Source of the DNA: Alkalinema sp. RU_4_3
Lineage (GTDB): Bacteria > Cyanobacteriota > Cyanobacteriia > Leptolyngbyales > Leptolyngbyaceae
Length of the DNA stretch: 50,642 nt
NCBI GenBank assembly: GCA_012031975.1
Contig: JAAUSA010000008.1
Location: 1 to 50,642 of the forward strand
Direction: 5' to 3'
Of this stretch, positions 7,659 through 20,566 are shown in pieces (the stretch's first letter is position 1; each line of letters opens with the position of its first letter). The notes under the pieces were generated by a model. That model saw only the letters and a list, made by a program, of their open reading frames with translations, was not told the origin of the DNA and searched no databases. The position numbers and the translations under genes were made by a program.

Positions 7659-9185
7659 ATGCGGATTTTAGTGGTTGAGGATGATGACATTGTACTGACC
7701 TTGCTGACAGCGCGTCTGGGTGCGGAGCATTATGCCATTGATGCGGCCACCGATGGGCTGACGGGTTGGGAATATGCTTCCATCTATGACTATGATCTGC
7801 TGATTCTCGATGTGGTGCTGCCGAAGCTCGATGGGATTTCGCTCTGTCAGAAATTACGGCAGGCGGGGCATACCTTACCGATTTTGATGCTGACCTCCCA
7901 GGACACCAGCATGGCTAAGATTTTGGGCCTGGATGCCGGGGCCGATGACTATGTGGTGAAGCCCTTTGATCCGGAGGAATTGACGGCGCGGGTGCGGGCG
8001 TTACTGCGCCGGGGCAGTACGAATCCGCTGCCGATTATGCTCTGGGGCGATCTCTGCTTAAATTCCAGTACCCAGGAAGTCAGCTATGGCGGAACCCTGC
8101 TGGACCTGACGGCCAAGGAATATGGCCTGCTGGAAATGATGCTGCGGGAAAGTCAGCGGGTGTTTAGCAAGGATGAGATTCTCGATTGTCTGTGGAGTGC
8201 GGAGGAATTTCCCGTCGAGGCCACGGTGCGATCGCATATGCGCCGCCTGCGCGGTAAATTGCTGGCGGTGGGGGCTCCGGCGGATTTGATCGCCACATCC
8301 CATGGTCGGGGCTATTATCTAAAACCCGTCAATGGGGGGGGCGAGACCTTGTTTGAGCCTGCCCCATTGACGGACCCAGAGCCCCCGGCCCCTCACCCCA
8401 GCGACGATCAACAGGCCCAGTATTTAGAATTCCTGAACCAAACCTGGCAGGAGCAGCGATCGAACTGTCTCCAGCGCGTCCATCGCCTAGACTTGGCCTT
8501 AGATCAGTTGCAAACCCAGGCCTTGCCCCTCACTGAGCAGTCTGAAGCCTATCGGATAGCCCATAATTTAGTGGGCACCCTGGGCACCTTTGGCCTCCTG
8601 GAGGCCATGGCGATCGCTCGCCTCCTGGAGCAGGAATTCCATCCCGATATCTATCTAGAACCGAGCCAAGTAAACCCCCTAAAACTATTATTAGCCAACC
8701 TCCAACAGCAGATCGAAACCACCGATACCTTGGTCAATCTGCCTAAACCCACTGGGGTAGAGCCCTTGGTGGGCAATGGCCAGGCGGGGCGATCTCTCGC
8801 AACACAGCGCTTGATGCTGGTGGATGACGATCCGATTTTGCTACAAACCCTATCTAAACAGCTTCAGGGCCATGGCTTCCAAGTGGGTGTACTCGATGAC
8901 CCACAGCAGTTTTGGGCCGTGCTAGAGAACCTACAGCCTGATGTTTTGGTGTTGGATATTCAAATGCCCCAGATGAATGGCCTGGTGCTTTGTCAGAGTT
9001 TGCGATCGGCCTCTCAGTGGCAAAAAATACCCGTGCTCTTTCTGAGTACCTTTGCCGACGCCCAGACCCAACACCAAGCCTTTGCCGCTGGGGCCGATGA
9101 CTATCTTTGCAAACCGATTACGGCCCAGGATTTGAGCGATCGCATCCACCATCGCCTCCAACGGATTCAAGCGGTTTCGCAGTAA
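7659..9185 (+). CDS. REC - winged helix - HPt - REC phosphorelay regulator
   Basis: 508 aa with four domains. Receiver 1 (1-120) has acceptor Asp51 in LLILDVVLPKLDG. An OmpR/PhoB-type winged helix (about 125-225) has LTAKEYGLLEMM, VRSHMRRLRGKL and HGRGYYL. An HPt-like domain (about 245-350) has phospho-His 302 in RIAHNLVGTLGTFG. Receiver 2 (about 383-505) has Asp433 in VLVLDIQMPQMNG. It can therefore bind DNA and also store or pass phosphate through an internal HPt and a terminal receiver. It follows the kinase and CheY-like gene with a GGAGG ribosome site and is very likely their partner. This architecture recurs in cyanobacteria; its targets cannot be read here. Confidence 0.9.
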   Translation: MRILVVEDDDIVLTLLTARLGAEHYAIDAATDGLTGWEYASIYDYDLLILDVVLPKLDGISLCQKLRQAGHTLPILMLTSQDTSMAKILGLDAGADDYVVKPFDPEELTARVRALLRRGSTNPLPIMLWGDLCLNSSTQEVSYGGTLLDLTAKEYGLLEMMLRESQRVFSKDEILDCLWSAEEFPVEATVRSHMRRLRGKLLAVGAPADLIATSHGRGYYLKPVNGGGETLFEPAPLTDPEPPAPHPSDDQQAQYLEFLNQTWQEQRSNCLQRVHRLDLALDQLQTQALPLTEQSEAYRIAHNLVGTLGTFGLLEAMAIARLLEQEFHPDIYLEPSQVNPLKLLLANLQQQIETTDTLVNLPKPTGVEPLVGNGQAGRSLATQRLMLVDDDPILLQTLSKQLQGHGFQVGVLDDPQQFWAVLENLQPDVLVLDIQMPQMNGLVLCQSLRSASQWQKIPVLFLSTFADAQTQHQAFAAGADDYLCKPITAQDLSDRIHHRLQRIQAVSQ

Positions 9186-9306
9186 GGAACTTGCGTTTAA
9201 ATAAAGTACCATTCCAAAAGTTTTCGCGGATAGTGAACAAGTCGTATACGTAGCCCAGATATCCGCGAGAATTCCACCAGGCGCTTAATGAACTGAGTAC
9301 GGTTAC

Positions 9307-9323
9307 CTGCTTGACTGACAAAA
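9307..9323 (+). repeat. Left terminal inverted repeat of the IS
   Basis: 17 bases, exact reverse complement of 10286-10302. It defines the outer left boundary of the insertion sequence. Confidence 0.88.
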
Positions 9324-9324
9324 C

Positions 9325-10204
9325 TCAAGAAGCTGGCATGTGCTTTAGGACAGTCAATTCAAGGGTAAATGATCGTTCGTGTTGACGTTTAGAAGCAATG
9401 GCAGGGTCCGGGTCCGGTGCACTTGATAAATAGTGAAATATTGGAATCAGACATTGGTCCGTAATAGCCCGTCGAATCCAATTCCAACCAATTTTGAGAT
9501 AACTCATCCCTCGATGCCAATAGGGCTTTGTCTTACCCAAGGTGACGGGACCTGTGAAGTAAGCTTTTCCCCGCTTGGGTTGCACATCGGACACTTTATA
9601 CCATCGACCCTCCGACTGAAACTGGAACCGTTGTTTGATTCTGATCCGAAAATGCCACTTTAGATTCTGCTGAAGATATTTCATTAGTTTACCATCCGCA
9701 AACCCTCGGTCTGCTAAGAGCACAACCTCTGTCCCCATGGGAAGGAGCTTGCTTACAGGCCGTAGAACCCGTTGGATCTGCCATAGTCCCACCGTGCTGC
9801 TCTTATGCACCACGATGTTGAAATGGATAGGGACCGTCCGACCTCGATAGACCACACCGACCCAGACCACGCAGAAACAATTCCATAGCATCGTTGTATC
9901 CAAACTCAAGTTACAGGCGCTCTTTCCCCCACTTTGACAGGGCCTGAGCGATTAGCTGGTGATGGACGGACATCACATTGATCCGTCGATTCGACAACCA
10001 CCGCCGGAAGCGGCGCTGGTGGGATTGGGACTTCTTGGCTCGACTTTTGACGTAGACCCCAAATCCACTCGGATGCACTTTTTGGCTCTGGATCATGCCA
10101 ATCATCATCCAGCATAAGGTTTGAACATGACGGATGTCCCGCCATAGAGCATATTGACGTAAATAAAGATCTAGCGCATCATACAAGTGGGATGTTGGAG
10201 TCAT
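9325..10204 (-). pseudogene. DDE transposase (IS4-like), frame-broken
   Basis: The N-terminal part is read from 10204 to 9911 (MTPTSHLYDALDLYLRQYA, then FRRWLSNRRINV and KWGKERL). The C-terminal part is in another frame from about 9909 to 9325, with SLDTTML (first catalytic Asp), VVLLADRGFAD (second Asp) and SKRQHERSFTLEL (Glu region). The two parts join around 9911-9914 if one base is removed or two are added. No slippery heptamer is obvious at the junction, so this is more likely a mutation or miscall than programmed frameshifting. The reconstructed length of about 290 aa is normal for a 1-kb IS. Confidence 0.75.
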
Positions 10205-10285
10205 CGGGATTAGCTCGGTTTGTGATTACTCTTAGCTTAAACCAGACTCCAGCTCCCGCCTAGCTTTCGTTTCACCCCTTAATAT

Positions 10286-10302
10286 TTTTGTCAGTCAAGC
10301 AG
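10286..10302 (-). repeat. Right terminal inverted repeat of the IS
   Basis: 17 bases, exact reverse complement of 9307-9323. It lies about 80 bases upstream of the transposase start, so the transposase promoter probably lies between the repeat and 10204. Confidence 0.88.
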
Positions 10303-10425
10303 AACATACAGGTCAATCCGTTATTTATGTATTGATCGATCGCGCAAACACGTTATTCGTCGATCGCACAGACGCCCGCGAAGGTCATTGCGGGCTATTG
10401 GTGCCGTCCCTGCAGGACGATGAAT

Positions 10426-12928
10426 TTATTTTTTCTTAGCCGTTTTTTCCCAGCGTTCTTTGATTTGTTTTAATTCTCGATCGCGATCCAATTCAGGATT
10501 AATATCTTTGGCGCGTCGGACCAGGAAATTGGCTTCTTCGAGGTAGGCTTTCATGAGGAAATCAAACCGCTGGGTGACGATCGCATTGTCGCTAGCGAGA
10601 CGGGAGCGATCGGCAATCGTAACGCGATCTTCGGCTTGCCAGAGGAGGGCTTGGGCGGCGGTGTGGCGGGCGTCGGCGAGGGGCTGATCGATCGATAACT
10701 TTGGATCGCGTTGATTCGCTTCTTCAAGTATGGCTTTGGCGCTGTTAAAGTTGCCAAGTAAGGCTGTGGCACGGGCTTGAGAAATCAAAAGTGGTGGAAT
10801 TCTAGATTGGGCCTGATTACAATCATTTTTTAATCCTTGAATATCAGGCTCATTCATCATATCTTTGAGCCAATAGCAGCCTAGGGCGAATTTTGATGCC
10901 TCGTCCCATAGTCTGGTTTCCCATAGCTTCACCGTGTTATCCCAACTCCCCGAGGCGATCGTATTGCCATCCGGACTGAAGGCCACGCTAGAGACAGAGG
11001 ATTCATGCCCTTTGAGCGTGGTAATCAGCGTCCCATCCCGTCGCCATAGCTTCACCGTGTTATCCCCACTCCCCGAGGCGATCGTATTGCCATCCGGACT
11101 GAAGGCCACGCTCCTGACTTCGGCTGAGACTTCTCGCCGGGGTTGGGCTGGCTTCTGGATGGATTCCCACCAGGTTTGGGCCTGAGATTGGGTTTTCTGG
11201 AACCAATTTTGAGACGGGCGATGATCTAGCCGATTCACCATTCGGACCTGTCCATTTAGGACAACTGCCGCTGACCTTTCTGTGGATTCTGCCGCAATCC
11301 GATAGGGTGGAATTGGCAGCCAGCCTAGCCAGCCCAATGACTTAACTTGCTGCTGAGCTTGTAAACTCTGAACTAATGATTGACCAATCTCACCATCCTG
11401 TTGCAGATCCTTGACCATCAGACTCGTAATCCGAATATCTGCAATTTTCCAAGAGACTACTCCTGCCCCAGCACCCAATATACTAGCGGCCAACACCGCC
11501 GTCCCAAGTCGCAGCCGACCATTGGCTTTGCGTATCGTGTCTTTTGCTTTTTCCTGTGCAGATTTTAGAGTTAGATTCGCTTCCTGCTCTAGTTGAATTT
11601 GTGTCTCTTTTTGTTGCAGCTCACGTTGTACTTCAGTCTCCCGACTGGCCTCCAAAAACGCTCGATCGATCGCCGCGAGCTGTTTGTCCTTCGCCCACGA
11701 TCGCGCATCTTGAAGCGCAGCCCCTTGCAATAGCAAATTGGGGTCTTGCTTGGCTTTTTCCCATTTTTGCAATGCTTCCCCATAGGGCCGTAATGCTAAA
11801 AGTCGCTGGGCAACCCAATCTGCATTAAAAATTTGTTGATAAATTCGATTGGAAACTTGGAGCGATCGCCTTTCTTCACCACCAATCCCGTCAGCCGCAA
11901 CGCCACCTGCTCATCACTACCATCCAACGGTATACCAGCTTCAGTCAAAATGCGCTGATAGCATCCCAGCATCGCTCCCGCCATCAATTCATTATTCATC
12001 ACCAAATTCTGAATTGTCTGAAAATGGATCTGTTTATCATTAGATTCCCAAACACTGATAATTTCCGATTCAATCAGAGCTTGCACAGGAGAACTCACCC
12101 CAGGAGAACCCTCCGCCTCCCGCATCAACCGACAAACCCGCTGCGTCAGAAATGGCTGCCCACCCGTCCAATCAACAATTTCTCGCAGCGTCTTTTCCCC
12201 ACCCGGCAAACCCTCCGCCAAAGCGATCGCCTCTTCTGCCGTAAACCCCGTAAGTTCGATCGCCTGCCCAATATTAAACGGTGTACGCCGCCGATCCTGA
12301 ATCAAATCCTGCGGCGCACAAACCCCCAACAGCGCAAACGTCAACCGCTGATAACTCGGCACATCCACCCGTCTGTTATAACACTCCCGAATCGCCGCAA
12401 AAAATCATCCGCCCGGAACGACAACCCCAACACACTATCAATCTCATCCACAAAAATTACGATCGGCTCTGCAACCTGGGTGAGCAACACTCCCTCCATA
12501 AACGATCGCCACCGTTGCACAAAAGGCAATCGTTCACGCTCATCCCACCAAGTCGATAACCGATCAAAATCCCAATCATCCAGCGATCGAGACTGCGCTT
12601 GCACCTGCTCCACAATCTCCCACAGCAACCCAAAATAAAATTGTTCCGCCGTAACTTCCGCAGAACCGCCTCCCGTCACATCGATCGCGACACAGACAAC
12701 CCGATCGCGCTGCAAGCGATCCATCGTCCGTACCCTCAGACTCGACTTCCCCATCTGCCGTGAATTCAGCACATAGCAGAAGTTTCCCGCCTTCAGCCCG
12801 GTATAAAATGACTCATCTGCCTGTCGCACAACATAGCTTCTCGCCTGCAACGGCAAACTCCCACCCACCTGATATTCAAACTTAGGCAAACCTGCTTCAG
12901 ATTGGCTCATAGAAGAAGTCCTCGTCAT
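10426..12928 (-). pseudogene. STAND-type AAA ATPase with WD40 repeats, broken by two frameshifts
   Basis: About 834 aa when reconstructed. The start is taken as the ATG at 12926-12928, which overlaps the TGA of the upstream gene (ATGA), so translation is probably coupled. The AAA-like domain (AAA_35 type, about 15-350) has YQVGGSLPL, Walker A LNSRQMGKSS and Walker B VIFVDEIDSVL. Next come a coiled coil, one membrane helix ([18 protein letters not shown]), and only two WD40 units ([17 protein letters not shown]...VKLW). The last part is a C-terminal ~170-residue helical domain ([10 protein letters not shown] onwards). Breaks: six A at 12399-12404 (seven needed) and one missing G near 11862. 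With both repaired, the domains join without loss. The role is likely signal-dependent ATP-driven assembly; no substrate can be read. Confidence 0.8.
10921..11113 (-). repeat. Two near-identical WD40 repeat units (123-bp period)
   Basis: The stretch starting at 10921 recurs 123 bases later at 11044, with one mismatch over about 70 bases (cccaactcc against ccccactcc). The 123-bp offset equals 41 residues, one WD40 blade. Near-identity at DNA level shows recent duplication or gene conversion within the array. Confidence 0.85.
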
Positions 12929-14514
12929 TTCCACAGATCTAAGAAGTACTGACGATATAGCTCACAGGCGACTCGAACACCGTTACGCTGGAACACCACC
13001 AACCCGAGGCTGCGGAGCATGGCTTTATGGGCTAGGTCGATCCTAACTTCTACATCTTTCGCTGCTAAGACCTGACGCATAGCAGCTTTCAAATCGCTAT
13101 TGCCATCCAAACGCCTTCGCATCTGCTCCAAATGCCTCCCGTAGAGACCCGCTTCAGTGGCTCCATTTTCCATGAGTTGCTCTAATGAAACCTGCTGTCG
13201 TGCGATCGCATACAAGCCCTGCCGAACCAACTGCGGATGCCCTCCCACTAAACCCATCAACTCCCTCGCAGTTCCTTCCGATACACCATGCAGCTTTGCC
13301 AATGCGAGAATCTGCGGCTCGGAAAATTCGCTTAATTCCATCTCATCCCCAACATTGAACGGAGACTGCCGCTCTGGCAGCGTATCAATATGTCGAGAAT
13401 GAACCAAGACGAGTCGTAGCTTCTGCCACTGAGCATTAGCTTTCATCTTATCATCATGCCAAGTTCGTAGCATTGAAAAGAACTCCACAATCCAAGTCTT
13501 TTCCTGATGGGAGTCCAGGAGGATATCCACTTCATCTAGTTCCAAAACCAGTAAATTAGGAATTTGTGGCAGTAGGACTGATTGGAAATAATCTCCGCAG
13601 GCTTTTTTATACCCTAACTTTTCTGCTCGCCGCTCATCTAGCTGGCTCTCAAATCCCAACTCAAAAGTCACGAGATCGCAGAAATATGCCAAAAACTTAT
13701 TCAGGCTTCCCATCGAGTCGAAATCTAATTCGCGAAAATTAATGCCAACAATCTTTGCTCCCGCCTCTTCTGCTTTAGAGATTGCCTTTGCCATCAGACT
13801 CGACTTCCCAAATTCCTGCGGCCCTTTAATCCGAATCAACGCACCTGATCGCAAGATTTTTTGCTCAATATCTGCTTCACAGGGTGGTCGATCGACATAA
13901 AATCTCGACTCGATCGCCATCCTCCCCCCCGGCTCCTCCAGTTCTTTCGCAACCTGTCTCTCCCGAGTCTCATCCCACAACAGCACAGGCGTCCCAACCT
14001 CCCCATCATTCGCCATCCCCGATAGCCCCATCTTATAGGCCTCACCGTAATCCCGCCCCGCCGCCAGCCCATCATAAAAAGCCACCGCGAAGTCCTTTGC
14101 TGCCCGATCGCCAATGGGCCGACTCATCCCAATCACACAGGACACATGCTCATAAATTGCCCTAGCCTGCACCTCCGAATAGCAAGCATTCAGCACCACA
14201 CATTCCACACAGGAAAACAGCTCAAACATCCGCCCTCATGCATCCGCCGACACCAGCCGACTCGAACCATCCGCATCCTCCAATAGCAGCCCCTCCGCCA
14301 CCCCATGCCCCGAAAAATGCACAATCGTAGGCTGGAGATCCTCGATCGCCCGCCTCACATCCTGCCACCGCACCGCCACTCGACAGTCCAACCTGAACGC
14401 ATCGCGATCGCGCGACAACTTCAATGCCTCCCGCACCTCCCGCATCTCCTCATCCAAACGCAGCTCAGCAGTTCCCCGAGGATGAGCCGCCAAAATTAAA
14501 ATAGTCTTTGTCAT
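12925..14514 (-). pseudogene. CHAT protease domain fused to a STAND/AAA ATPase, with an in-frame stop
   Basis: 529 codons from the ATG at 14512-14514. The CHAT (caspase-like, clan CD) domain covers about residues 1-190. His70 is in VHFSGHG and Cys111 in VVLNACYS, the expected His-Cys dyad. A DETRERQ linker leads into an ATPase (about 205-520) with Walker A near residues 230-238 (GPQEFGKSS) and Walker B LLVLELDEVDILL, then an all-helical tail. The frame is uninterrupted except for TGA at 14236-14238 (codon 93), between His and Cys. TTA to TGA is a single change, and Leu is what I would expect there. The gene overlaps the next gene by 4 bases, so the two proteins are probably made together. CHAT proteins act as proteases in cell-death and defence signalling. 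Confidence 0.78.
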
Positions 14515-16331
<1,817 letters not shown>

Positions 16332-16940: not shown

Positions 16941-17681
16941 ATGCTTTTAGAGCGTATGCGGTTACCTCAACGTCTGCGACTGACGGGGGCGATCGCCTTC
17001 ATCGGTGTCGGTGCGATCGCCTTTGGCCAAGCGAGTTCTGCCCAGGCCGTCACGATTCAGTTTAAGGGCAGTCTGATTGATTTGACGGATGGGGAGAACC
17101 TAACAGGCCTCCAACCTAACAATCTGCAAAATGCCACCTTTACGGGCAGCTATACCTTCGATCGGAGCCCTAGCCTATTCCAAGGGACGACTGGGGATGG
17201 CCTGGGCAGTGCTCGCTATGCTCAGCAGGTCATGACCCAGGAGGAGGGGCTCCGTATCCAACTGGGCAAGTTGGACCTACGGGGTCCAACGGGGGGCTAT
17301 AGCTCGATTTCTCGGGAATTTGTGAACGGGCCGCCCCAGTTCGATGAATATCGCATCCAGAGCTTTGCGAGCAATGGGAAGACCAGCTTTGGTGGCTCCA
17401 TTAGCCTCCTGGATAGTTCCTCTCAGGCCTTGAAGGGCATCAGCCCTGGCTCGGACCCCACTAGCCTCGACGCCTGGCAGCGCACCTTTGTCCAGGTGGC
17501 TCGACGCAATACGGATGGTCGGGGGGATGTGGCCTTCCGAGGCACCCTTTCCGAATGGAAGGTGATCGAAACACCCCAAGTCCCGCCCAACAAGGTTCCT
17601 GGACCTTCTCCCATACTGGGGATCGCCTGGATGGGCCTGATCAAGGGGGTGCAGAAGCTACGCGATCGAGTGTCGGCGTAG
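16941..17681 (+). CDS. Exported protein with a PEP-CTERM-like C-terminus
   Basis: 246 aa. The N-terminal signal peptide has a positively charged n-region, a hydrophobic core GAIAFIGVGAIAFG and a cleavage site after SSAQA. The mature part looks like a beta-rich secreted domain (TIQFKGSLIDL, NATFTGSYTFDRS, GTLSEWKVIE). The C-terminus VPGPSPILGIAWMGLIKG followed by KLRDR matches the layout of cyanobacterial PEP-CTERM sorting signals (Pro-rich motif, hydrophobic helix, basic tail), but has PGP in place of PEP. The function of the secreted domain is unknown. Confidence 0.7.
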   Translation: MLLERMRLPQRLRLTGAIAFIGVGAIAFGQASSAQAVTIQFKGSLIDLTDGENLTGLQPNNLQNATFTGSYTFDRSPSLFQGTTGDGLGSARYAQQVMTQEEGLRIQLGKLDLRGPTGGYSSISREFVNGPPQFDEYRIQSFASNGKTSFGGSISLLDSSSQALKGISPGSDPTSLDAWQRTFVQVARRNTDGRGDVAFRGTLSEWKVIETPQVPPNKVPGPSPILGIAWMGLIKGVQKLRDRVSA

Positions 17682-17782: not shown

Positions 17783-18156
17783 CATAAACTTAACAATTAT
17801 TTACAATAATCCATCGATCCCCGAATTTTCCAGGGCTCTCCCCAGGCTTTTCCCCACCTTTTCCCCAGGCTGTGGAAAGTTATCCACAGATGTTGCCCTG
17901 ACCTTGGGCACGCGATCACTTTTTGTGGATAACCCGATCGCCCTCTGCCACCCCTGGGGAAAAGCCATTTGTATGAAGTTTTGTAACAAAAACTGGGCTC
18001 AAACCCCCATTCTCTCGCTCAGGACAGTGGGGATTTGGGGTAAAAATTCTTCGGGGCGATCGGTTGAATTTTGGGAGGTGATGGCACAGAATAGAGCGAC
18101 TTCGACAGGCTGCCCCAACGGTTGGGTGCAAACGGAGTTTCTCTGCCTGTGGATGA
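17783..18156. other. DnaA-box cluster beside an AT-rich stretch (origin-like region)
   Basis: This lies within a 522-base gap (17682-18203). An AT-rich run occupies about 17783-17815. It is followed by a perfect DnaA box TTATCCACA at 17880-17888, a perfect reverse box TGTGGATAA at 17924-17932 and a one-mismatch box TGTGGATGA at 18148-18156. The first box lies in a 7-bp inverted repeat, 17870-17876 with 17883-17889. Several TTTTCCCCA-like sequences occur at 17840-17868. This could be a replication origin, a DnaA-titrating site or a DnaA-regulated promoter. No dnaA or dnaN gene is in the window, so the origin reading is uncertain. Confidence 0.4.
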
Positions 18157-18203: not shown

Positions 18204-18431
18204 ATGGATACGCCGATTAGTTTGTTTGTTGAGATTCCTGAAACGCTGCACCAGTCCCTGGCGACCTTCTTGGATAGCCGTCCGGACTGGGATCAAGATC
18301 GCGTCTTTTCGGCAGCAATTTCACTCTTTCTGCTTCAGAACCGCATGCCGGACCAGGGCAGCGATCGCGCCTCCGCCCGGATTTACTTGGATTCCCTATT
18401 TGGCCGCACCAGCGCCGATGTTTCTGCCTAA
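18204..18431 (+). CDS. DUF2811 family small protein
   Basis: 75 aa from the ATG at 18204. It resembles the cyanobacterial DUF2811 family as I remember it: ISLFVEIPETLHQSLATFL, DWDQDRVFSAAISLFLLQN, and a C-terminal ARIYLDSLFGR. The EIPE...D.DRVF..A...FL pattern suggests a ribbon-helix-helix or helical regulator-like fold, but the function is unknown. The frame is open far upstream. The ATG that begins just before the conserved block is chosen. It is followed 100 bases later by a nuclease-like gene. Confidence 0.75.
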   Translation: MDTPISLFVEIPETLHQSLATFLDSRPDWDQDRVFSAAISLFLLQNRMPDQGSDRASARIYLDSLFGRTSADVSA

Positions 18432-18531: not shown

Positions 18532-19329
18532 ATGGTCTATCCAATTTCGGCTACGAAATTGCGCACCTACCAGCGCTGTGCCTATGCCTACTATCTCAAG
18601 TATGAGAGACGGGTTGAGAGTAACGAGTTCTATGGTTCGGCGGCTCTCGGGTCGGCGCTCCATCAAGCCTTGGCCGAGTCCTATCGAGACTGGCACTACC
18701 GCGAGGCCAAGCCCCACCGCCATTGGTTTGACCACTGTTGGAATAAATATTCCAAGGATCTCAATGTGGGCCAAGTTCGGGAGGGGCGACGGATTTTAGA
18801 GAGCTATTACGATCGCTTCGTAGACAAAGAAGCGGTGGTGCGGCAGCCCCTGGCGGTCGAAGGTAAAATTCAATCCAAGCTCCAGGTGGGGGATTTAGAG
18901 TTTTTAATTACGGGGCGCTACGATCGAATTGATTTTCTGCCCGATGGCTTGGAATTAATCGACTACAAGTCCGGGCGGGATGTGGATTTGCCAACCAATG
19001 GCGATATGGAACTGCAAATCGGGCTCTATTACATTGCCTTGGAGCAGACCTATCAACAAAGTCTGAAGTATTTGAGTCTGTTGTATTTGCGCACGGGGGA
19101 GAAGATTCGCTTTACGGCCTCCCGACAGCATAAAAAACGCGCCCTGGAAATTGTGGCGGATTTGGCTGTGAAATTGCGGCAGGATGAGGCCTGGGTGCCG
19201 ACGCCAGGTCAGGGGTGCGATCGCTGTAGCTATTCCCGCTATTGCAGTGCGATGCCGGGACAGACGGCCGCCTTGCCTGAGTTGCGCCCAGCCAAGAGTT
19301 TGCAGTTGGCGCTGCCGTTATCAGCGTAG
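18532..19329 (+). CDS. PD-(D/E)XK nuclease superfamily protein with four-cysteine (Fe-S type) signature
   Basis: 265 aa from the ATG at 18532; the frame is open further upstream, but homology-like sequence starts at YPISATKLRTYQRCAYAYYL. RecB/Cas4-type nuclease features: a Gly-x-x-x-H in GSALHQALAESY, an Asp in GRYDRIDFLPDG, the catalytic LIDYKSG, and a downstream Gln-rich helix (MELQIGLYYIALEQ). One Cys near the N-terminus plus three in GQGCDRCSYSRYC form the Cas4/AddB-type iron-sulphur cluster pattern. It is probably a DNA-processing enzyme in repair or recombination. No CRISPR array or cas gene is nearby, so it is not called cas4. A purine-pyrimidine microsatellite lies just upstream at about 18456-18482. 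Confidence 0.83.
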   Translation: MVYPISATKLRTYQRCAYAYYLKYERRVESNEFYGSAALGSALHQALAESYRDWHYREAKPHRHWFDHCWNKYSKDLNVGQVREGRRILESYYDRFVDKEAVVRQPLAVEGKIQSKLQVGDLEFLITGRYDRIDFLPDGLELIDYKSGRDVDLPTNGDMELQIGLYYIALEQTYQQSLKYLSLLYLRTGEKIRFTASRQHKKRALEIVADLAVKLRQDEAWVPTPGQGCDRCSYSRYCSAMPGQTAALPELRPAKSLQLALPLSA

Positions 19330-19393: not shown

Positions 19394-20566
19394 ATGAAAG
19401 TTCTTTTTGCGAAACGGGTTTGGCTAGGTCTAGGGTTAGGGTTGCTGCTGAGTTGGGTGGTGACGGGCTCCCTAGTAAATGGTCAGGGTTCCGTGGCGAA
19501 GGAGGTTTCTGCCGAGGTGGTGGCGCTCGGGAAACCCAAGGTTGAGACAAAAGTTGAAACAAAAGTTGAAACAAAGGCTGAGGCGGCGAAACCTGAGTCC
19601 TCGATGGATGCGGCAGAACGGCTGAAGCTGTTGCCGGAGAATCGTCCGGTGGTGGTGCAGGTGGGACTCTATGTGAGCAATTTGGCGGAAATTAATCAGA
19701 GTTCCGAAACCTTTGATGTGGCGGGGTATTTGTTTTACACCTGGCGGGATGGACGACTTGCCTACAATGCCAAGCAGATGGGGACCAATGCGCGATCGGT
19801 GAAATTAGAGGACATTTGGCATCCATCCGTGGAGATGGTGAATTTTAAGGAGTCTAAGGCCTCAGATACAACGGTGACGGTCGCGCCAGATGGGACGATC
19901 ACCGCCCAGGAAAGATTTTCTAAGACCCTGTCGTCTGGGTTGGACCTGCGGCGGTTTCCCTTCGACCAGGAGCATTTGCAGGTGGTGATCGAGTCGTTGC
20001 TCTATCCGTTGAGTGATCTGCGATTTACGACGGATAAGGGGAAATTAGCGATCGGGAAGGATAGTTTTGTCAGTCTGTCGGAATGGACGATTCAGGGGAT
20101 TCAGGGGAAGGATGGTAAATCCTTTTTTCCTCCGGAGCAGCAGGACTATTCACGGGTGACGATGGATGTTACTATTCAGCGTAATTCGGGGTTTTATCTA
20201 TTTAAGGTGATGATGCCTTTGTTTTTAATTACCATTGCGTCTTGGAGTGTCTTTTGGATCGATGCCAAGGAATTTTCGACACAGATTACGATCGCATTTA
20301 CGAATCTATTGACCGTGGTGGCCCTATTGCTCGTGGTGAATGATTCCTTGCCGCGTGTGGGATATTTGACGTTTATGGATGGCTTTACGATGCTGTGTTT
20401 TGCAGCAATCCTGGCGGTGATTATGGAATTAATCTGGGCGCACCGCTGGGAAAGCCGAGATGACCATGACCAGGCCCAGAGAATCCATGTAATGGCACGT
20501 TGGATCGTGCCATCAGGATTTCTTTTAACCTTCTTAGGGCTATGGGGAATGATGATTGGGGTTTAG
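19394..20566 (+). CDS. Prokaryotic pentameric ligand-gated ion channel (Cys-loop receptor homologue)
   Basis: 390 aa from the ATG at 19394; a TTG at 19376 is an unlikely alternative. A signal peptide/hydrophobic leader is followed by a short KVET tandem repeat. The beta-sandwich ligand-binding domain (about 75-270) contains VVVQVGLYVSNLAEIN, the family motif DLRRFPFDQEHLQVVIES (the loop lacks the two cysteines, as in GLIC and ELIC), and W-containing loops. Four membrane helices follow: M1 LFKVMMPLFLITIASWSV, M2 with FTNLLTVVALLLVV, M3 FTMLCFAAILAVIMEL, and M4 near the C-terminus. The channel would sit in the plasma membrane with an external ligand domain. Ligand and ion choice cannot be read. 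It ends 2 bases from a convergent gene. Confidence 0.88.
   Translation: MKVLFAKRVWLGLGLGLLLSWVVTGSLVNGQGSVAKEVSAEVVALGKPKVETKVETKVETKAEAAKPESSMDAAERLKLLPENRPVVVQVGLYVSNLAEINQSSETFDVAGYLFYTWRDGRLAYNAKQMGTNARSVKLEDIWHPSVEMVNFKESKASDTTVTVAPDGTITAQERFSKTLSSGLDLRRFPFDQEHLQVVIESLLYPLSDLRFTTDKGKLAIGKDSFVSLSEWTIQGIQGKDGKSFFPPEQQDYSRVTMDVTIQRNSGFYLFKVMMPLFLITIASWSVFWIDAKEFSTQITIAFTNLLTVVALLLVVNDSLPRVGYLTFMDGFTMLCFAAILAVIMELIWAHRWESRDDHDQAQRIHVMARWIVPSGFLLTFLGLWGMMIGV

Follow-up and report, generated by a model that had tools for sequence, protein, structure and literature searches.

The window analysed in this study, a contig (C122) of 50,642 nucleotides from the Alkalinema sp. RU_4_3 genome (5.25 Mb in 362 contigs), contains a DUF2811 gene (75 aa; Pfam PF10929, E 2e-24) at 18204..18431 on the forward strand, followed on the same strand by a PD-(D/E)XK (PDDEXK_1) nuclease gene at 18532..19329 (PF12705, E 2e-33). 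The nuclease gene follows DUF2811 in many same-family genomes and, judging by gene order alone, the two are probably co-transcribed. Between this pair and the left-flanking gene (16941-17681, without a Pfam match), 116 bp (17848-17963) hold five exact matches to the DnaA-box pattern TTWTCCMCA and one near match; no known RNAs were identified in the window at Rfam gathering scores. On the forward strand, two exact sites of sequence TTTTCCCCA (17848..17856 and, 11 bp further on, 17859..17867) precede an exact DnaA box, TTATCCACA, at 17880..17888, 21 bp past the second of them. Since the 17880 box is the last forward box, it serves as the anchor from which the conserved spacings are measured. On the reverse strand, a second exact TTATCCACA box is found 44 bp past the anchor (17924..17932), and a third exact TTTTCCCCA site lies another 31 bp on (17955..17963). 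The near match, CTTTCCACA (17871..17879, reverse strand), abuts the 17880 box and forms with it the palindrome CTGTGGA...TCCACAG; neither the near box nor the palindrome occurs in the other 11 sequences of a 12-sequence alignment of relatives.

Much of this had been noticed in an earlier, sequence-only reading, whose two oppositely oriented TTATCCACA boxes, inverted repeat over the first of them and AT-rich left side (71% A+T across 17783-17830) were all found as described. Its inventory of boxes was correct for the TTATCCACA sites but overlooked the three exact TTTTCCCCA sites, for which reason the unit is defined here as 17848-17963. The near-exact box that it reported at 18148 is present with one mismatch (TCATCCACA, 18148..18156, reverse strand), but is missing from the other 11 of the 12 aligned sequences and is therefore not counted as part of the array. 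The boxes are real and non-random: the 5.25-Mb genome contains 238 copies of the pattern TTWTCCMCA, compared to 103 of a reversed-pattern control, and a Poisson estimate gives approximately 7e-9 expected 116-bp spans with at least five sites genome-wide. Dense box groups on contigs C153 and C219 were also considered as regulatory arrays and were rejected, both lying inside repetitive coding sequence.

The array is embedded in further conserved elements. An HLR1-like (RpaB/RpaA-type) motif, TTAACAATTATTTACAAT, lies to its left at 17790..17807 on the forward strand, agrees with the HLR1 consensus KTTACAWW-N2-KTTACAWW (PMC13421787) at 15 of 16 positions and has aligned counterparts in most of the 12 relatives. 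The AT-rich stretch consists largely of this motif and, whereas it had been read as the unwinding element of an origin, it holds no recognisable element of that kind. A reverse HLR1-like motif, GTTACAAAACTTCATACA (17970..17987, reverse strand; 13 of 16 positions), follows 90 bp past the last forward box, and alignment places a sigma70-like promoter, TTGAAT-N17-CAGAAT, at 18064..18092 on the forward strand, 184 bp past that box. The alignment of the 12 same-family sequences displays this arrangement: the array is flanked by an HLR1-like motif on its left and a reverse one on its right, and a promoter block of the form TTGNNN-N17-CANNAT is present as well. Beyond the alignment, HLR1 matches at 15 or more of 16 positions were found in 21 of 69 upstream regions (a scan that omitted one locus with a short upstream region, L055) compared to 3 of 1380 shuffles, and 102 of 147 loci had a reverse HLR1 match (at least 13 of 16) 60-130 bp past the last box, compared to 3 of 147 in shuffles. 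An anchor box is present in 128 distinct loci, of which 75 have the reverse HLR1 at 89-93 bp and 42 have their best promoter match at +180 to +184 from the last forward box. Scanning for promoters by score alone gave only a modest gain over shuffles.

The DUF2811 gene was present in 58 of 58 relatives, and arrays were found upstream of copies both with and without a following nuclease gene, as well as upstream of both DUF2811 paralogs among relatives. An exact box lies no more than 800 bp upstream in 79 of 80 named loci, with two boxes within 120 bp in 40 of the 80; the density of exact boxes in these upstream regions is 2.83 per kb (181 in 64.0 kb), compared to 0.05 per kb in the rest of the same loci (20 in 397.6 kb). 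After duplicate removal reduced 150 upstream regions to 131 distinct ones, 127 of these carried at least one exact box between -700 and -150 and four carried none; in Baaleninema (L142), no exact box was found within 800 bp upstream, and in Nostocales mostly one exact box is kept. Consecutive forward boxes (185 spacings, for distances up to 70 bp) are separated by steps of about 11 bp, with 98 spacings at 21-22 bp, 32 at 43-44 bp and 21 at 11 bp, followed by 7 at 33 bp, 6 at 54-55 bp and 6 at 66 bp. Among relatives, the last forward box is followed by a reverse one in 39 cases, and in 26 of these the distance is exactly 44 bp. The window conforms to this pattern, with its forward boxes 11 and 21 bp apart and the reverse box at 17924 a further 44 bp on. 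The second DUF2811 copy of the same genome (C165:2255-2419, L060) has no exact box upstream, unlike most second copies in relatives. A separate observation concerns a 1.75-Mb, Prochlorococcus-sized genome (G059) with three DUF2811 genes; the two examined (L198 and L199) both have upstream exact boxes, and the link between array and gene therefore survives strong genome reduction.

The occurrence of dnaA was surveyed in three overlapping draws of genomes, and the gene was present in all 116 genomes drawn from the class, in all 32 drawn from one order and in 371 of the 388 that made up a wider draw. The remaining 17 genomes of the wider draw, which lack dnaA, fall in families f30, f32, f33, f35, f36 and f42. 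In the class sample, DUF2811 was found in 115 of 116 genomes; the exception (G060, a 380-contig assembly) has dnaA and no DUF2811 match. A DUF2811 match was absent from 13 of the 17 dnaA-less genomes and the copy in another (G322) is broken by two stops, while the gene was present in all 17 chosen dnaA-positive relatives, each with at least one exact box. Fisher tests of the co-loss gave 5e-6 and 9e-14, uncorrected for kinship among these related genomes; contrasts were counted by genus, and loss was scored for DUF2811, such that a general loss of cell-cycle genes may lie behind the absence of this gene. Elsewhere in the survey, one genome has a dnaA that is apparently split into two overlapping reading frames (G065:C14:59390-60738), and another (G117, contigs C1 and C2) has ten weak DnaA-domain matches of equal score that probably come from a multi-copy transposon ATPase gene.

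Where an intact DUF2811 persists without dnaA, in three genomes, the arrays are eroded or missing. Both dnaA-less and dnaA-positive members were sampled in four genera (g94, g145, g98 and g139), and in all of them the change has the same direction. The dnaA-less members of g94 and g145 lack DUF2811. In g98, the dnaA-less G184 keeps the gene without any box, even at one mismatch, compared to three exact boxes in its congener G296; alignment of these two shows the promoter block and following bases almost unchanged and the boxes gone. In g139, to which the broken G322 copy belongs, the dnaA-less G344 and G384 retain one exact box each, compared to two in their congener G316. Box offsets in G336, which has three exact boxes, are approximate. 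Genome-wide, close pairs of boxes occurred in 3 of 17 dnaA-less genomes compared to 17 of 17 dnaA-positive ones. The close pairs of the dnaA-less genomes amount to four matches, of which two fall within a single 21-bp tandem repeat. The close pair still present in the dnaA-less G384 had no dnaN match alongside within the 3.5 kb fetched.

As read from these genomes, the place and spacing of the array upstream of DUF2811 are kept across cyanobacteria and, without dnaA, either the array decays or it is lost together with the gene. The locus also shows what a DnaA-controlled promoter should show, namely several consensus DnaA boxes upstream, a conserved box-to-promoter position and sites that depend on the presence of dnaA (uncorrected for kinship). 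We consider it quite probable that the cluster is a helically phased, DnaA-bound array in the regulatory region of DUF2811 (here together with the nuclease gene) and that the DUF2811 product belongs to the DnaA pathway. A DnaA-controlled promoter for this pair had been offered in the sequence-only reading as an alternative, and it gains support from the phylum-wide conservation and the co-loss with dnaA. DnaA, probably ATP-DnaA, would assemble on the boxes along about one face of the helix, approximately 135-250 bp upstream of the inferred start of transcription, and would raise or lower transcription from the sigma70-like promoter, thereby adjusting the supply of DUF2811 (and of the nuclease). 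Such binding to a phased array would account both for the geometry and for the decay of the boxes once dnaA has been lost. DUF2811 in turn may act in the DnaA pathway, since the gene is usually discarded once DnaA is gone, and could serve DnaA-dependent initiation, for example as a feedback regulator.

It is also important to note that several observations do not fit DnaA control of DUF2811 easily. The second DUF2811 copy of the Alkalinema genome, the four distinct upstream regions without a box and the Baaleninema locus all lack the expected sites, and most Nostocales are down to one exact box. In addition, G060 has dnaA without a DUF2811 match, and single exact boxes persist in the dnaA-less G344 and G384. 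The promoter scan by score exceeded shuffles only modestly. The HLR1 sites present a similar difficulty. Both match the consensus expected of an RpaB target (15 and 13 of 16 positions), but they lie at approximately -112 to -129 and -292 to -309 of a start inferred near 18099, outside the ranges published for activation (-45 to -66) and repression (-38 to +23) by RpaB (PMC13421787). Because of this mismatch, RpaB control of the DUF2811 promoter is put forward as a suggestion, in which RpaB/RpaA would perhaps add a light or redox input. As described in the available text on RpaB/HLR1-controlled promoters (PMC13421787, PMC6331805), these also have the HLR1 consensus near a sigma70-type promoter; in the present case, however, the motif is upstream of the activating range and beside DnaA boxes.

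A more far-reaching proposal is that DUF2811 represents an undescribed kind of cyanobacterial DnaA partner or regulator in a feedback loop with DnaA, which is a tentative idea that we find plausible but stop short of favouring. DnaA would sense its own level on the phased array and set the amount of DUF2811, which would in turn influence the initiation that depends on DnaA; RpaB/RpaA would contribute a light or clock signal. After a loss of dnaA, the loop would have no purpose, and gene and array would both decay. The AlphaFold model of the DUF2811 protein, with three helices, is weak (pLDDT 57.6), and a Foldseek search of the PDB with it yielded nothing usable. A profile search of PDB sequences for DUF2811 gave nothing useful, and a ribbon-helix-helix fold was considered and dropped when no such Pfam family matched. 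No paper naming DUF2811 was found in the literature searched.

Among other explanations, the one that survives best is that the array is a DnaA titration or activity-resetting site that binds or recycles DnaA and neighbours DUF2811 by chance, in the manner of E. coli datA and DARS, which are non-coding loci acting on the nucleotide state of DnaA. The size and phasing of the array would suit DnaA oligomers, and DnaA-box arrays away from promoters seem to exist in these genomes. A third recurrent array was observed just 3' of guaA, the gene for GMP synthase; of 20 fetched regions away from both dnaN and DUF2811, 13 contain it (L081-L084, L086 and L090-L097; for example, L081:1735-1785 and L086:1742-1792), guaA being identified by Pfam in 3 of the 13 and read from open reading frames in the remainder. 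Because the flanking genes converge in 12 of the 13 regions and convergent genes need no promoter between them, this array looks like a non-promoter, titration-type site; in the Alkalinema genome, no exact TTWTCCACA group resembling it stands out. The array upstream of DUF2811 differs in its fixed geometry relative to the promoter and HLR1 motifs, a tie that argues against a gene-independent locus of the datA/DARS type. Moreover, arrays precede both DUF2811 paralogs, and the DUF2811 gene itself is lost with dnaA, both of which tie the array to the gene. A titration site is unlikely.

Considerably less probable still is that the boxes merely resemble DnaA boxes and are the target of a different protein whose binding site is similar. 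The sequence TTTTCCCCA differs from the published TTTTCCACA box, and the binding of DnaA to the array is itself a deduction from sequence. On the other hand, the same 9-mer is the published cyanobacterial DnaA box (PMC4674748), and the arrays vanish with dnaA in several lineages.

The box cluster is probably not the chromosomal origin. The sequence-only reading had proposed a minimal origin here and had named a better box cluster beside dnaN among the findings that would refute it; an origin-type cluster was found on another contig of the same genome, C167, where dnaA (8019-9344) and dnaN (9592-10716) are adjacent with four exact boxes in between. Neither gene is near the DUF2811 array, which is therefore not the best cluster beside dnaN. 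In seven single-contig genomes measured by hand (G038, G039, G047, G051, G055, G057 and G064), DUF2811 lies 0.67-2.2 Mb from dnaN. In the last of these, an S. elongatus-like genome of 2,696,255 bp, 20 spaced samples place the cumulative GC-skew minimum at 1.48-1.62 Mb, with dnaN at the minimum (1.62 Mb) and DUF2811 0.85 Mb away (0.77 Mb); the origin of S. elongatus has been mapped near dnaN (PMC7198777). Within the window itself, the cumulative skew reaches its minimum near 16-18 kb, but it swings just as far at 44-48 kb, and the genome is divided into 362 contigs. Cyanobacterial origins at dnaN, as reported in the available text of PMC4674748 and PMC7198777, share box sequences and some 11- and 21-bp spacings with the array, which nevertheless has no dnaN or dnaA neighbour, is far from dnaN where the distance could be measured and has a conserved promoter and HLR1 geometry. 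Hence, despite boxes adjoining AT-rich DNA and the local skew minimum, a main or secondary origin with the AT-rich stretch as its unwinding element is hardly credible.

DnaA control of DUF2811 would have precedents, since gene-regulating clusters of DnaA boxes are already known elsewhere: in B. subtilis, DnaA-box regions outside oriC regulate transcription (cited in PMC7198777). According to that citation, these regions are clustered, intergenic, away from the origin and beside the regulatory region of a gene, as is the array described here; the differences are that the target in the present case is DUF2811, that the array is phased and phylum-wide and that target and array are lost with dnaA. 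The datA and DARS loci of E. coli (PMC4585315) resemble the array as non-origin DnaA-box loci, but the array stands in a fixed relation to one gene. The array was not found described in the available literature on DnaA boxes, RpaA/RpaB, datA/DARS and cyanobacterial dnaA loss, a body of text in which subscription journals are mostly uncovered, and the main text of the cyanobacterial gene co-occurrence studies that were checked does not mention dnaA. What DnaA does in those cyanobacteria whose replication does not require it has been described as unclear (PMC7198777). The present finding points to one particular, widely conserved candidate target of DnaA and to a candidate partner protein, such that the role of DnaA in these cyanobacteria becomes testable, and the finding may also provide a path by which the sensing of light reaches the control of replication.

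Two further observations were made in the window. Directly after the nuclease gene, 19394-20566 on the forward strand encodes a protein homologous to pentameric ligand-gated ion channels, with matches to Neur_chan_LBD and Neur_chan_memb. On the reverse strand, at 12925-14517, CHAT-domain pieces occur in two adjacent frames (14236-14517 and the start of 12925-14229), the latter of which also contains AAA_35; this is possibly a single CHAT-AAA gene split by a frameshift or a sequencing error.
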